53,634 nucleotides of DNA, from positions 1 through 53,634 of the forward strand of contig CAIKGD010000050.1 of assembly GCA_903826865.1 (NCBI GenBank), in the 5' to 3' direction. This DNA comes from an uncultured Verrucomicrobiota bacterium. Lineage in GTDB: Bacteria > Verrucomicrobiota > Kiritimatiellia > Kiritimatiellales > Tichowtungiaceae. Made by a program: the position numbers and the translations under genes. This document shows positions 4,364 to 52,082 of this stretch, piece after piece. Position 1 is the stretch's first letter. Every line of letters starts with the position of its first letter. A model generated the notes under the pieces. It was given only the letters and a program-made list of their open reading frames with translations, did no database searches and was not told the origin of the DNA.

Positions 4364-7300
4364 TTAAACCGGCGCGACCTGCACCGACTCGCCAATCAGC
4401 ACCAGCGCCGCAGAAACCTGTGTGCCGGGATACAGCTTTTGAACCGCCTCGCGGTACGCTTCCAGTTGCGGCGAATAGATATCCAGCGCCGTTTCCGGCA
4501 GCTCATTCGTAAACTTGTAGTCGAAGATTTTAAAGCCGTCGGCCAGTTGCGCGAGCAGATCTATCGTTCCGTCGAGAAGCAGATCGCCGCGCTTCAGTAC
4601 AAACGGATGCTCCGCAAACAGCGCCGTTGCGCCCGCCGTCTCCGCGCTTAAAAGCTCGCGCGCCGCTTCGAGCTGTGCAACCAGCATATCTGTATTCACT
4701 TGGCCGAATTCCGCAGTGAACAGCGTCACCAGTTCGGAAACATTTCCTGCCCACCGGTTCTTCGCCAGTTCTTCGAGAACGGCATGACCAAGCGTTCCTA
4801 ATGATCTCCGGTCATTAGCAGACTTGAGACTTGAGGCGTGAGGCTTGAGGTCTTCAATCAGACTCGTCACCGACTTACGCTCAAATCCTACCGGAACTCG
4901 CAACCGGTTGAATTTTAACTCTTCCCTCAGGCCTAAAGCCTCAGGTCTCAAGCCTTCGCCGGTCTCCGCCTGCGGTAACTTTTCAAAACTCAATTTCCTC
5001 AGAATCTCCGGTGCCGCTCCTCCGAGAAACCCCGCCGCTTGCGCCAGCCAGCCTTTCGGTTCTTTGGTGCCGGCACCGGAAAGAACAACCAGATCTCGGG
5101 CGCGGGTCATCGCCACATAAAAAACATTCGTCAGCTCATGATCGCGGACGGCTTTATCCGCCTCGCGCGCCGCATCCCAGCCCGGCGATTTCACCTCTTC
5201 GCCCGCCAGACCGGAGGTTTTCATCTCCAGCCGTCCTCCCGGCGAAAACATCGCGAAGCCCGGATCGTTCACATCGCCGAAACTGATGTCCGGCACAAAA
5301 CAGACCCGTTTCGTCAGCCCTTTCGCGCCGTGCACTGTCATCAGCGTCACCGCGTTCTGTTCCGGATCGGGCAGCAGTGCTTCGGCGGCTCCGCTGCGCG
5401 GCGGCGTCTTAATGTATTTCTCAAACAGCCGCACCACGTCCGGCAAAAGCATCTGGCCGCCGCGCTCGGCGGCGCGCAGCCAGTCGAGCGCCTTTTTGAA
5501 ATTGGCCAGCTTCTGTTCGCCGCCCGGCAATCCGGCCAAATGCGCATCAAACGCTGTTTCGCGCACGATTTCACGCACCAGTTGCGACGGCAGCTTTTCA
5601 CCGGTTTGACCGCGGTAGCGCAGCAGACGTTCCGCCGCTTCTGAACCGCTCTCGAAAAACTGTTTACGCAGAATCTCATGGTCAAATACTTCGCCATTCC
5701 AGCCGAGTGTAACAATTGTTTCGTCCGGCACATTGGCGAACGGCGAGCGCATAAAGCCGACCAAAGCCAGATCGTTGGACGGTTCACAAAGCACCTGCAG
5801 AAACAGAAGCAGATCGCGCACTTCCTGCTGTTCAAAGAGTGCTCGGCCTTTACCGCCGCTGGTGTAGGGAATACCTGCATCGCGCAGCGCCGTTTCGAGC
5901 GCAGCCTGATGCGTCGAACGCTTCAGCAGAATCAGAATATCGCCGTAATTGAACGGCTCATCTTTGGCAAACATCTTGCCGTTATGCCCGAACCTTGGCC
6001 GCCATTCCGCGCCGCCGGAAACCAGTAAGCGGATGCGTCGCGCGACGGCAGACATTTCGTCTTCGATCGTACTCTCGTCGTTGTCCTTCATCAAAAATTC
6101 AACGCACGGCCCCTCGCCGTCTATTACCGCCCCGAGCTCTTTGACGGGCTCCAGCGCCGCGGCCTCATAATCTTTATAAATTCCGCTGAACAGTCCGTTC
6201 ACCGCTTCGAGCACGCGGTCTTTACTGCGATAACTTTTCTTCAGCGCAACCTGCTTCAAATCGCCGCGCCGCTCCATCGCTTTTTCAAGATCGGGCATCA
6301 CCTGCGGATCGGCGCTGCGCCACGCATAGATCGACTGCTTCTTATCACCGCAGATCACCAAATGCGTCTCTTTACCCCAAAGCGCCTCGATCACATCGCA
6401 CTGCACCCGCGAGGTGTCCTGCACTTCGTCCACAATGATCCAGTCGAACAGTCCGGTAAATTTTCCGCTCCGGAGCAGATCGCGCGCCAGCAGAAGCTGA
6501 TCGCCGAAATCCACCGCGTCGCGCGAGCGCTTCGCTTCGGTAAAGCCGCGCGCCGCAGCGGCAAGGTATCGGGCGAAAGCGCGGAATTTTCCGGCGTTCT
6601 GTTCATAAAAATATTCAGTCAAAAAGCGCTCTTTTAGTTCATCCAGTTCATCAGAGATTTCTTTCATTTCTTTGCCGGTAAATTTGGTGAGAGAATCAAA
6701 CAACGCCAAACCCACCCCGTCCGTCGCATTGCTCCGGCCACCCCTCCCCTGGAGGGGAACTTTCGAAATCCCCTCCACCGGAGGGGTGCCCGCAAGGCGG
6801 GGTGGGTTTCCTGCAGCTGGAAAATTCTGCAGCAAAGTTACCAGAACTTGGAGAACACCGGCCGCCTTAGCAGGCAATCCGCGGTCGGCGTTGATTAAAC
6901 GAAGTTTTTCGTAGATTTTTCGGAATTCCTTTTCGCCGACCGTGCGTTCCGGCGGCGGAAGCAGCGCTTCGGCAAGGCTCAGATCAAGCCCGCGGCTGGA
7001 TGCGTTTTCGAGCAGGGAACGAGCCGTGTTGATCAGACTGTACGGATTGTCCGGCGAACCGAGAATTGAAACACCGGAGCAGAATTCGCGGAAGTCGGGA
7101 TCATTTTCCAGAGATTTAAAAATCTCAGCCTTAAGCACCTCGTCGAGCAGCGCGTCACGGTCTTCGTCTTCCAGCGTTTGGAAAGCCGGGGAAAGTCCAA
7201 GCTCCAGCGCATGTTCGCGAAGCAGTCCGGCGCAAAAGGCGTGAATCGTCGAAATATTCGAAGCCGGCATAGCGCGCAAAACCCGCCTCGCGCGGTCGCC

Positions 7301-7543
7301 CAGTTCATCATCGCCGCTTTCGTGTGCGGCCGTTTCGGCGGCGATCATCTTCTTCGACACGTTCCCGCGCAACTCGGCGGCGGCGTTGTCGGTGAAGGTC
7401 ATCAGCAGAATTTTTTCGGGGGCGACAGGACGACGGCCCGGCGGCAGATGTTCATGATCTTTTCCCAGCACCAGAGCGGAATAGAGTTCGGTGACCTGCC
7501 AAGTCTTCCCCGTTCCCGCCGATGCGTTAAAAATCATGTTCAT
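4364..7543 (-). CDS. AddA/RecB-type UvrD-family helicase with C-terminal nuclease domain
   Basis: This is a superfamily 1A DNA helicase-exonuclease of 1059 residues, expected to process double-strand breaks. Visible motifs are Walker A ASAGTGKT (8-15), DEVQDTSR (about 371), KQSIYAWRSADP (about 402), LMTVHGAKGL (about 731) and AMTRARDL (about 808). The C-terminal RecB-like PD-(D/E)XK nuclease keeps LDGTIDLL (about 983) and the DYK of KIFDYKF (about 1002). No addB partner is present in the window. The gene is unusual in carrying three repeat insertions without losing its frame: a 102-bp palindromic core (residues about 245-279) and two heptad arrays (about 864-873 and 898-907). The start at 7543 places Walker A at the usual N-terminal distance. 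Confidence 0.85.
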   Translation of the reverse strand: MNMIFNASAGTGKTWQVTELYSALVLGKDHEHLPPGRRPVAPEKILLMTFTDNAAAELRGNVSKKMIAAETAAHESGDDELGDRARRVLRAMPASNISTIHAFCAGLLREHALELGLSPAFQTLEDEDRDALLDEVLKAEIFKSLENDPDFREFCSGVSILGSPDNPYSLINTARSLLENASSRGLDLSLAEALLPPPERTVGEKEFRKIYEKLRLINADRGLPAKAAGVLQVLVTLLQNFPAAGNPPRLAGTPPVEGISKVPLQGRGGRSNATDGVGLALFDSLTKFTGKEMKEISDELDELKERFLTEYFYEQNAGKFRAFARYLAAAARGFTEAKRSRDAVDFGDQLLLARDLLRSGKFTGLFDWIIVDEVQDTSRVQCDVIEALWGKETHLVICGDKKQSIYAWRSADPQVMPDLEKAMERRGDLKQVALKKSYRSKDRVLEAVNGLFSGIYKDYEAAALEPVKELGAVIDGEGPCVEFLMKDNDESTIEDEMSAVARRIRLLVSGGAEWRPRFGHNGKMFAKDEPFNYGDILILLKRSTHQAALETALRDAGIPYTSGGKGRALFEQQEVRDLLLFLQVLCEPSNDLALVGFMRSPFANVPDETIVTLGWNGEVFDHEILRKQFFESGSEAAERLLRYRGQTGEKLPSQLVREIVRETAFDAHLAGLPGGEQKLANFKKALDWLRAAERGGQMLLPDVVRLFEKYIKTPPRSGAAEALLPDPEQNAVTLMTVHGAKGLTKRVCFVPDISFGDVNDPGFAMFSPGGRLEMKTSGLAGEEVKSPGWDAAREADKAVRDHELTNVFYVAMTRARDLVVLSGAGTKEPKGWLAQAAGFLGGAAPEILRKLSFEKLPQAETGEGLRPEALGLREELKFNRLRVPVGFERKSVTSLIEDLKPHASSLKSANDRRSLGTLGHAVLEELAKNRWAGNVSELVTLFTAEFGQVNTDMLVAQLEAARELLSAETAGATALFAEHPFVLKRGDLLLDGTIDLLAQLADGFKIFDYKFTNELPETALDIYSPQLEAYREAVQKLYPGTQVSAALVLIGESVQVAPV
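4823..4850 (+). repeat. Heptad tandem array (CTTGAGR)4 inside the helicase gene
   Basis: Four 7-bp units are visible: CTTGAGA, CTTGAGG, CGTGAGG, CTTGAGG. On the coding (minus) strand they add a low-complexity peptide of LKPHASSLK type between helicase and nuclease domains. The array lies in inverted orientation to the one at 4925-4952. Confidence 0.8.
4925..4952 (+). repeat. Heptad tandem array (CCTCAGG/TCTCAAG) inside the helicase gene
   Basis: Four 7-bp units are visible: CCTCAGG, CCTAAAG, CCTCAGG, TCTCAAG. It is the inverted counterpart of 4823-4850, 74 bp away, so the two could pair in single-stranded DNA or RNA. It encodes GLRPEALGLRE-like residues on the coding strand. Confidence 0.75.
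6708..6809 (+). repeat. Palindromic element core inserted in frame in the helicase gene
   Basis: The ends are AAACCCACCCCG (6708-6719) and CGGGGTGGGTTT (6798-6809), which are perfect inverted repeats. An inner pair of CCCCTCC and GGAGGGG blocks lies between them. The length is 102 bp, exactly 34 codons, and the minus-strand reading through it has no stop (GTPPVEGISKVPLQGRGG is part of it). The same core occurs at 30066-30170 and 51838-51939, and a half copy lies at 11260. The long outer ends seen in those two intergenic copies are absent here. Confidence 0.9.
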
Positions 7544-10762: not shown

Positions 10763-11260
10763 ATGGGAAAAATACAGAGCTTTCCGTTTTCTGCCGACAA
10801 AAACTCGCGGGTGCTGATTCTCGGTTCGATGCCGGGCGAAGAGTCGCTGAGACAGCAGCAGTATTATGCTCATCCGCGCAATCTGTTCTGGGATGTGATG
10901 GGCGATCTGTTCGGCGCGGGCCGGACTGTTCCGTACGAAAAGCGCCTGGAAATTTTACGCGCAAACGGCATTGCCCTCTGGGATGTGGCGCACACCTGCC
11001 GCCGCAAAGGGAGTCTTGATTCCAACATGACCGATGTGGCGGCGAACGATTTCGGCTCCCTGTTTGCAGAAGCACCGCAAATTCACACCGTTTTCTTCAA
11101 CGGGCAGACGGCGGCCGCACTGTTCCGCAAGCTGGTTCTGCCGGAACTGAATCGCAAACTGACGCCGGTCACGCTGCCATCAACGAGTCCGGCCCATGCC
11201 TCGGTTCCGGCCGCAAAGAAAAAAGCGGCCTGGCGCAAAGTCCAGACCGCTTTGAAATAA
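10763..11260 (+). CDS. DNA-deoxyinosine/uracil glycosylase (UDG superfamily, family 6-like)
   Basis: The 165-residue single-domain enzyme would excise deaminated purine bases, mainly hypoxanthine, as the first step of base excision repair. The start motif LILGSMPGEESL (about 17-28) corresponds to the UDG motif 1 loop. YYAHPRNLFWDVMG (about 34-47) is strongly typical of the hypoxanthine-DNA glycosylase group. The late LPSTSPAHAS (about 140-149) is motif 2, contacting the DNA minor groove. Its length and motifs distinguish it from Mug and family 4 enzymes. The stop codon touches a half copy of the palindromic repeat at 11260, which lies in the gap to the convergent prepilin peptidase gene. Confidence 0.85.
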   Translation: MGKIQSFPFSADKNSRVLILGSMPGEESLRQQQYYAHPRNLFWDVMGDLFGAGRTVPYEKRLEILRANGIALWDVAHTCRRKGSLDSNMTDVAANDFGSLFAEAPQIHTVFFNGQTAAALFRKLVLPELNRKLTPVTLPSTSPAHASVPAAKKKAAWRKVQTALK

Positions 11261-11334
11261 CCCACCCCGGCCTTCCATCCTTCGCAAAGGCTGCGGCGGA
11301 TACAGACGGCCACCCCTCCCGTGGAGAGGATTTT
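11260..11334 (+). repeat. Left half of the dispersed palindromic element
   Basis: The copy begins ACCCACCCCGGC directly at the glycosylase stop and reaches the CCACCCCTCCC block near 11310-11320, then GTGGAGAGG. The right half (GGAGGGGTGCC and the closing GGGGTGGG) is missing. It fills the gap between two convergent genes, where it could still fold into a weak hairpin. Confidence 0.65.
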
Positions 11335-12144
11335 TCAGAAACCCATGATGGAGAGATAGACCTGCCAAAGCCGGAAGCCGCCGAGCAGCCAGGAGAAGGC
11401 GGCGAGCGAGATGTAGGGGCCGTAGGGAATCTGGCTCTGAATGCCTTTGCGGTGCAGCGCGATAAGCGTGATGCCCGCCACCGAACCGATCAGCGCGGAA
11501 AAGAAGACGATATAAATGACGGCTTCCCAGCCGAAGAGTGCACCGAGCGCACCCATGAGCTTGACGTCACCGAAGCCCATGGCTTCTTTTTTCAGCGCGG
11601 CCGTTCCGATTGCACGAACCAGCCAGAGCGAACCGAAGCCGGCCGCGAGACCGATCAGGGAATCTTTAAGTCCGCTCAGCCAGGCCGTTTCGCCCTGCAA
11701 CGGGGGAAATAATACACTGAGCATCGGAAAAAGAATCATTCCGCCGATGGTAAGGCGGTCGGGCAGAATCATATGTTCGAGGTCGATAAAGGTACCGAGC
11801 AGCAGACCGAATACAGCGAGCATATAAATCGGGGTGAACCAGGAGAAACCATAGATGAGCCAAATGGTAAGAAAGAAGAATCCGGTAAGCAGTTCGATAA
11901 CCGGATAAACCACGGAAACGGGCAGTTTGCAACTGCGGCATTTGGCATGGAGCAGGAACCAGCTGATTACCGGTATGTTGTCGTACCATTTGATATAGCT
12001 GTTGCAGTTCGGACAGGACGAAGGCGGCCAGACTACAGATTTTCCCAGCGGAATGCGATAGACACAAACATTAAGGAAACTGCCGAGGCAAAGACCGAGA
12101 ATAAAGATCAGCGCCAGCCAGTAGATGGTCCAGAATTCTGTCAT
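11335..12144 (-). CDS. pilD: Prepilin peptidase (leader peptidase/N-methyltransferase, A24A)
   Basis: This polytopic inner-membrane aspartyl protease cleaves and N-methylates type IV prepilins and type II secretion pseudopilins. LGSFLNVCVYRIP (about 20-32) is the N-terminal signature. Two CxxC pairs in CPNCNSYIKW and CRSCKLP form the zinc-binding cytoplasmic loop. FGDVKLMGALGALFGW (about 194-209) includes the second catalytic Asp of the GxGDxK motif, and the first Asp lies in LGTFIDLEHMILPDRLT (about 138-154). The 269 residues are standard length. It is the last gene of the leuA-aroE-pilD run, overlapping aroE by 4 bp. No pilin or pseudopilin gene lies in the window. Confidence 0.88.
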   Translation of the reverse strand: MTEFWTIYWLALIFILGLCLGSFLNVCVYRIPLGKSVVWPPSSCPNCNSYIKWYDNIPVISWFLLHAKCRSCKLPVSVVYPVIELLTGFFFLTIWLIYGFSWFTPIYMLAVFGLLLGTFIDLEHMILPDRLTIGGMILFPMLSVLFPPLQGETAWLSGLKDSLIGLAAGFGSLWLVRAIGTAALKKEAMGFGDVKLMGALGALFGWEAVIYIVFFSALIGSVAGITLIALHRKGIQSQIPYGPYISLAAFSWLLGGFRLWQVYLSIMGF

Positions 12145-30034: not shown

Positions 30035-30204
30035 CTAGAGCAATTCACAATTGAGAAACCGTACTTACCCACCCCGTCTGTCACTTCGTTCCAGCCACCC
30101 CTCCCAATGGAGGGGAGCTTTTTAATAATCCCCTCCTTCGGAGGGGTGCCCGAAGGGCGAGGTGAGTTTGGACATCACGACGTTTCAATCGTTATCCGCT
30201 CTAG
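30035..30204. mobile_element. Palindromic MITE-like element, full copy
   Basis: The element is 170 bp. Left end CTAGAGCAATTCACAATTGA and right end ATCGTTATCCGCTCTAG form imperfect terminal inverted repeats. An inner region has ACCCACCCC...CCCCTCC and GGAGGGG...GGTGAG blocks. It closely matches 51809-51972. No gene is encoded, so any movement would be in trans. The last bases overlap the fdtA stop codon, read on the other strand. The rest of 29827-30034 holds no recognised feature apart from a GC-rich inverted repeat near 29985 without a T-tract. Confidence 0.82.
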
Positions 30205-30761
30205 CCTGCGCTCCCGCCCAGACCGTTCCAGCCTTTGGCAATCCGTTCAAACCCGGCGCGGTCACGGATATAATCGGCTTCATCATATTTGATATTGGCA
30301 ATCACCATGAGCGTGGTTCCGGGTTCGAAGTCGCGCATTACGCGCCAGATGTGCGGATAAAGCAGCAGAGCTGCTTTAGTATCGGGGTATGGGGGTTGTT
30401 GTGTACGGGCGTCATCCAAAAACACCTCTACACCCTTACTCCCACACTCCGCTACTCCACTACTCCCGCATGACGAAAGGTGAACACTCTCCTTTCGTCC
30501 TTTGCCATCATCAAGATCAACGGTGCAACCGCCGGTCAGAGCAACAAGAATTTCTTCGGTTTCGTAATGAGCATGATTACCGCGCACATCGTCTGTGCGG
30601 ATATCCGACATCACCAGCACCTTGCCGATTTGAAAAGGCAAAGCATTTATCGTTTCCAGACCCGGCTGGAATTGAACCAGCCTTCCCCCTACGCTTCCCT
30701 GTCGCTCGCAAAATCTCAGTAATTTATACAACTTACTTTCTTTTGCACATTTATCGATCAT
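30201..30761 (-). CDS. Sugar 3,4-ketoisomerase (FdtA/QdtA cupin)
   Basis: This small cupin protein isomerises dTDP-4-keto-6-deoxyglucose to the 3-keto form. Visible motifs are RGNHAHYETEEILVALTGGCTV (about 59-80), with the catalytic His pair, and PHIWRVMRDFEPGTTLMVIANIKYDEADYIRD (about 137-168). At 186 residues it is longer than usual (about 135-150), owing to an extra segment between residues about 95-130. That segment contains an 8-bp tandem array translated in frame. The stop codon TAG is the outer end of a MITE-like element. It is downstream of the TylF-like and rmlB genes on the same strand. Confidence 0.8.
   Translation of the reverse strand: MIDKCAKESKLYKLLRFCERQGSVGGRLVQFQPGLETINALPFQIGKVLVMSDIRTDDVRGNHAHYETEEILVALTGGCTVDLDDGKGRKESVHLSSCGSSGVAECGSKGVEVFLDDARTQQPPYPDTKAALLLYPHIWRVMRDFEPGTTLMVIANIKYDEADYIRDRAGFERIAKGWNGLGGSAG
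30427..30466 (-). repeat. 8-bp tandem array (GGAGTAGT)5 inside fdtA
   Basis: On the minus strand the five units are GGAGTAGT, GGAGTAGC, GGAGTGTG, GGAGTAAG and GGTGTAGA. They are translated as part of the segment SSCGSSGVAECGSKGVEV, which replaces the tight loop normally present in FdtA. Confidence 0.8.
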
Positions 30762-51808: not shown

Positions 51809-51972
51809 TAGAGCAATTCACAATTGAGAAACCGTACTTACCCACCCCGGCTGTCACTTCGTTCCATCCACCCCTCCTTATGAGGGGAACTTTAATAATC
51901 CCCTCCGCCGGAGGGGTGCCCGCAGGGCGGGGTGGGTTTGGTATCACGATGTTTCAATCGTTATCTGCTTTA
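51809..51972. mobile_element. Palindromic MITE-like element, second full copy
   Basis: This copy matches 30035-30204 closely. The left end TAGAGCAATTCACAATTGAG and right end ATCGTTATCTGCTTTA form imperfect terminal inverted repeats. The inner core (51838-51939) has CCCACCCCG, CCCCTCC, GGAGGGG and CGGGGTGGG. No reading frame of note is present. The rest of the 319-bp gap (51764-52082) holds no other recognised feature. Confidence 0.85.
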
Positions 51973-52082
51973 GTAAGCAATCAACTATCGGCTTTTATCA
52001 AATGGACAGAACCGGATCAGATGCCGGACAAGGATAAATTATGAGCACAGGATAATAAGCGACAAGTGATGAATTGTTGCGA

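Follow-up and report, generated by a model that had tools for sequence, protein, structure and literature searches.

The window examined here, a stretch of 53,634 nucleotides from an uncultured bacterium of the phylum Verrucomicrobiota, contains an AddA/RecB-type gene with a palindromic repeat inside its reading frame. How did such a repeat enter a long coding gene without destroying it, is it one of many, and what spreads it?

A palindromic insertion in an intact addA gene

The segment in addA (Table 1) was a 102-bp quasi-palindrome, and its first and last 12 bases were perfect reverse complements, as the initial annotation had described; terminal inverted repeats are a classical MITE trait. 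It consisted of two G+C-rich hairpins, CCACCCCTCC..GGAGGGG and CCCCTCC..GGAGGGGTG, and lacked both the GTAG tag and GGGGTCAG ends. The coding strand had been reported as stop-free, and indeed no stop occurred in any of its three frames; because the insert was 102 bp long and contained no stop, the ORF stayed open. The description as exactly 34 codons was right as to length but not as to alignment, since the segment started with the last base of a codon. It lay, as proposed beforehand, between helicase motifs, in a poorly conserved, variable stretch after the N-terminal motifs and before motif II (DEVQD); this stretch gave no alignment to solved AddA or RecB.

In same-genus genomes with an AddA spanning the region, tblastn matches were interrupted at residues ~242 and 275-287, and in an alignment of the same-genus AddA proteins the peptide NPPRLAGTPPVEGISKVPLQGRGGRSNATDGVG was present solely in the protein from the window. 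These relatives lack the peptide, and the segment is therefore an insertion. An empty site was found in one of them (L082, GGAAAC-TTTGACGGG vs. GGAAAC[...]TTTGGCGTTGTTTGA in the window), giving a net gain of 105 nt between GGAAAC and TTTGA, with no clear target-site duplication relative to this empty site, which is diverged. The density of differences between addA and five relatives was 2-4 times higher at third codon positions than at first and second ones, which fits a gene under purifying selection. The initial annotation had held that its reading would fail if homologues from relatives without the repeat carried the peptide or if the gene proved to be a pseudogene; the peptide was absent from the same-genus proteins, and addA, with its intact ORF and divergence piled up at third positions, was not a visible pseudogene.

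Table 1. Coordinates (positions in the window), strand and properties of the features discussed.
Feature	Position	Strand	Remarks
AddA/RecB-type helicase-nuclease gene	4364..7543	-	1059 aa, intact; UvrD helicase, UvrD_C and PDDEXK_1 domains
In-frame palindromic repeat insertion in addA	6708..6809	-	peptide ~G/NPPRLAGTPPVEGISKVPLQGRGGRSNATDGVGL, residues ~245-279
Terminal inverted repeat arm AAACCCACCCCG	6708..6719	none	perfect 12-bp match to other arm
Terminal inverted repeat arm CGGGGTGGGTTT	6798..6809	none	perfect 12-bp match to other arm
Intergenic copy of the addA-insert repeat	30067..30169	none	nested in longer element, ~30046-30205, with TAGAGCAATTCACAATTGAGAAACCGTACTT-type ends
Intergenic copy of the addA-insert repeat	51840..51939	none	in same longer element, ~51810-51974
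Degenerate, probably half copy of the addA-insert repeat	~11259..11344	none	at boundary of two genes
In-gene hosts in the same genome (Pfam)			AddA; peptidase U32; two methyltransferases; radical SAM protein; YgiQ; HAD hydrolase; TPR protein; MnmA; photolyase; FAD protein; GspK; PLD protein; LysU/EpmA-like synthetase; cytidylyltransferase-like protein; PheT; M16 peptidase
DUF559 in frame in hsdM/hsdR	L086, L087, L095, L096, L098-L101, L104, L105, L108		several families of the phylum

A dispersed family within and between genes

The two further copies that had been noted at 30066 and 51838 were real (Table 1) and were 82-83% identical to the addA insert. The longer element around them had imperfect inverted ends (TAGAGCAATTCACAATTGAGAAACC...), and partial ends of this type were also seen at several other loci of the genome. 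A search of the whole genome (an 88-contig assembly of 2.64 Mb, 98% complete) with the repeat, a check that the initial annotation had suggested, gave 83 blastn matches, which merged into 40 places. Exact CCACCCCTCC-N1-10-GGAGGGG sites numbered 31, vs. 0 for the reversed control pattern; this abundance is far beyond chance. Several copies were incomplete, which may mean that the family is in decay.

Seventeen of the 40 places were in frame within long ORFs that were read through (in two cases close to the start of the ORF), i.e. in 16 genes besides addA. Pfam matches were found on one or both sides of the copy in most of the 17 hosts, and copies sat within Radical_SAM_N, tRNA-synt_2, tRNA_synthFbeta and Methyltransf_23 matches: in YgiQ, for instance, the Radical_SAM_N profile (1-301) was stretched across 349 residues with the copy inside, and in PheT the repeat peptide was a gap with respect to the solved PheT structure. 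The preferred reading frame encoded xPPRx (11 of the 14 scorable copies, p = 0.0007 vs. one third).

Rickettsia palindromic elements (RPE; Ogata 2000/2002) are summarised in PMC10969869 as ~150 bp long and as lying in frame in unrelated genes and in intergenic DNA, nearly half of the copies being in ORFs. The family found here is likewise palindromic and occurs both between genes and, in frame, within unrelated genes; for AddA and PheT the homologues without the element were also without the peptide. The RPE-like, in-frame colonisation suggested by the initial annotation is thus supported for this family by its dispersal, its in-frame copies and the homologues lacking the peptide. Unlike RPE, it belongs to another phylum and in relatives the same repeat flanks a nuclease gene; the likeness described here is one of behaviour.

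In relatives, 42 places of the repeat included 11 further long ORFs that were read through (e.g. close to where a HypD ORF begins, and beside PDDEXK and radical SAM domains). These were other genes than in the window's genome, so the insertions look species-specific. AddA itself was a recurrent target. Three further species of the genus had unrelated palindromes at a second site of it, likewise in frame: a GTAGGAC...GTCCTAC REP dimer near residue 633 in G003 and G008 (6 and 12 places of this pattern in the respective genomes, 0 in that of the window), and a GGGGTCAGTC palindrome at the same place in G004. At the first site, that of the insert in the window, addA of G003 and G004 had small TTCCAA..TTGGAA palindromes. 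An ORF of G011 with PDDEXK_1 and a weak UvrD_C match carried a copy of the window's family beside the PDDEXK_1 domain. TTCCAA..TTGGAA palindromes were very frequent in general (32 in 179 kb of the genome's own loci) and were also seen inside addA of relatives (L081-L084).

Intragenic REPs have been reported in many species (Di Nocera 2013, PMC3733652), the highest number of the GTAG kind being in Opitutus terrae, a verrucomicrobium; in-gene palindromes are therefore not new to PVC bacteria, and the initial annotation was wrong to regard such insertions as absent from the literature on PVC-like bacteria. In the same survey, GTAG and CGTC REPs sat in many genes, including recB and photolyase, recB of two Xanthomonas species had REPs at about the same site, CGTC repeats were apparently without a dedicated transposase, and the authors speculated on a selected function of REPs in repair genes (PMC3733652). 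The window's family resembles these REPs, and REPINs with their RAYT (PMC3733652, PMC2817692, PMC3116915), in its many-copy hairpin pairs, in a nuclease gene flanked by repeats and in its intragenic copies in DNA-repair genes; intragenic REPs lie in recB among others and also occur in Opitutus terrae. It differs from the REP/REPIN of RAYT in having no GTAG tag and no linked Y1/HUH transposase, the linked enzyme being a DUF559 protein of the PD-(D/E)XK type. New are the repeat family itself, the scale on which it occurs in a single genome of a Pontiellaceae-like genus and, as an association, the link with DUF559. The initial annotation had noticed neither this scale, with its 17 in-gene copies, nor the DUF559 link. 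Palindromes lying in frame within genes have been on record since 2000, and how the non-GTAG kinds move is the question that this link addresses. The repeated insertions in AddA and RecB raise the further question of whether recombination enzymes attract such inserts or simply tolerate them.

DUF559 nuclease genes flanked by repeats

That C/T-rich repeats of this kind can occur near DUF559 genes served as a lead, and DUF559 (PF04480) was looked for. Full matches were found in 21 of 289 genomes of the phylum, one in each. Full or half copies of the window's repeat flanked the DUF559 gene in three genomes of the class: G001 (Pontiellaceae bacterium GMC3.metabat2.52) and G011 (Verrucomicrobiota CSMAG_2814), where the gene was bordered on both sides, and G054, from another family, where almost the whole ~95-bp repeat lay on each side (L114). 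All three show the same repeat on both sides of the gene, in the same or related genomes, which we propose as the mark of a DUF559-associated repeat.

At 16 loci of the phylum the longest word common to both DUF559 flanks was longer than in windows at a distance of 600 bp (Wilcoxon p = 3e-4), and at 12 DUF559 loci of other phyla, from a plasmid collection, flank-shared words exceeded the control on average (p = 0.003), 3 of the 12 having none beyond it. C/T-rich palindromes were seen beside most of the DUF559 genes examined in the phylum and beside several in other phyla. Genomes with the repeat pattern were enriched for DUF559 (5/17 vs. 21/289, p = 0.004); the other 12 of these 17 had no DUF559 at the threshold used, and the window's own genome gave no match to PF04480 or to a narrower DUF559 profile (A2). 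The A2 search found 4 loci only, two of which (L117 and L118) belonged to another DUF559 subfamily, without evident flanking repeats. In the literature searched, DUF559 was not linked with repeats or mobility. The Caulobacter DUF559 protein VsrA, a putative mismatch-repair endonuclease, has been named as the cause of the SOS (DNA damage) response in scmA mutants (PMC12907096). The candidate mover is of the same domain family as VsrA.

These associations give moderate support to DUF559 as a putative mover of the family in trans. Flanking by repeats is in itself compatible both with DUF559 moving the repeats and with DUF559 merely riding inside them. Several genomes have the DUF559 family beside this repeat, and several phyla have it beside similar palindromes, which makes the question of the mover directly testable; should the link be true, these enzymes might also serve further palindromes for which no mover is known.

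About half of the DUF559 matches of the phylum were themselves in frame within hsdM (N6_Mtase) or hsdR (HSDR_N, SWI2_SNF2) ORFs (Table 1). The sites recurred by eye, after PxxLWF in hsdM and after TTIxKF or near FYAWR in hsdR. These cases could also stem from one ancestral DUF559 fusion carried along with the restriction genes. A broader proposal, that Vsr-like DUF559 nucleases move a wide class of C/T-rich palindromes as a PD-(D/E)XK counterpart of RAYT/REPIN, and insert their own gene as well as the repeats into host genes with the frame kept, often at recurring hsdM/hsdR sites in the manner of homing endonucleases, is tentative, and we give it somewhat less than an even chance.

Origin of the addA insert and competing explanations

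The reading that we favour, with a probability of about 0.75, joins three parts: a member of a dispersed, non-autonomous palindromic family (REP/MITE-like) inserted into addA with the frame kept, it would persist as a translated and tolerated loop, and the family may be spread in trans by DUF559. The insertion, the family, the frame, the absence from relatives and the many other in-gene copies were observed directly. Judging from the sequence, the repeat peptide in AddA is probably translated and harmless: since all three coding-strand frames are stop-free, an insert of suitable length at a tolerant position of the protein could survive as a Pro/Gly-rich loop, here in the variable stretch that separates motif II from the N-terminal helicase motifs, and most insertions destroying needed genes would be purged by selection. 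The mover would be a Vsr-like PD-(D/E)XK endonuclease of the DUF559 family, flanked by the same repeats after the fashion of RAYT, and the window's genome would then have lost its DUF559 gene, unless the missing 2% contains it.

RAYT transposases lie between REPs whose movement is attributed to them. A RAYT (Y1/HUH REP-associated transposase) could have spread the repeats, as proposed for GTAG REPs, with the DUF559 genes as passengers inserted into existing repeats. The window's genome does have four Y1_Tnp genes, one of them with GGGGTCAG repeats on both sides (L048:2068-3193, G000:C55), and the genus has palindromes of the GTAG and GGGGTCAG types, which are typical of Y1 systems. However, the CACCCCTCC repeat was near none of the four Y1 loci, so that Y1/RAYT is not supported as its mover; the repeat has neither the tag nor the ends of those palindromes, and C/T-rich palindromes occur at DUF559 flanks in several phyla. 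We regard this explanation as unlikely. No classical transposase associated with the window's repeat was found. The GGGGTCAG repeats flanking L048:2068-3193 resemble the GGGGWSAS TIR type of PMC3733652.

Adaptive domestication, i.e. selection of the peptide for a function in AddA such as the tuning of recombination, is quite improbable. It would suit the palindromic inserts in AddA of four species of the genus (at least three families, two sites), the copy beside PDDEXK_1 in G011, the Xanthomonas recB REPs at about one site (PMC3733652) and the over-represented xPPRx frame; yet the AddA inserts vary in sequence and length among species and most relatives have none, many unrelated genes are also hit by the repeat, a frame bias can arise from avoidance of disruptive residues, and a long gene with variable loops offers a large neutral target. 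An artefact of assembly or binning, or a pseudogene, is hardly credible: the assembly is of 88 contigs with many dispersed repeats, but this repeat is short and well inside a 53.6-kb contig, the addA ORF is intact with divergence concentrated at third positions, and 16 other in-frame cases exist in the same genome.

Two further domains were seen inside other genes. In a plasmid of Pseudanabaena galeata (L128), DUF559 shared a CDS of 1621 aa with an MmeI-like methyltransferase domain and was flanked by a 26-bp inverted CCCTCACCCCCAGCCCCTCTCCC repeat. In the window's own genome, a gene resembling CCA-adding/poly(A) polymerases contained a Y1/RAYT domain in frame (L049:1862-3917, - strand, G000:C42); this was a 685-aa ORF with the order PolyA_pol, RNA-binding, Y1_Tnp and HD, and with GC-rich palindromes around.
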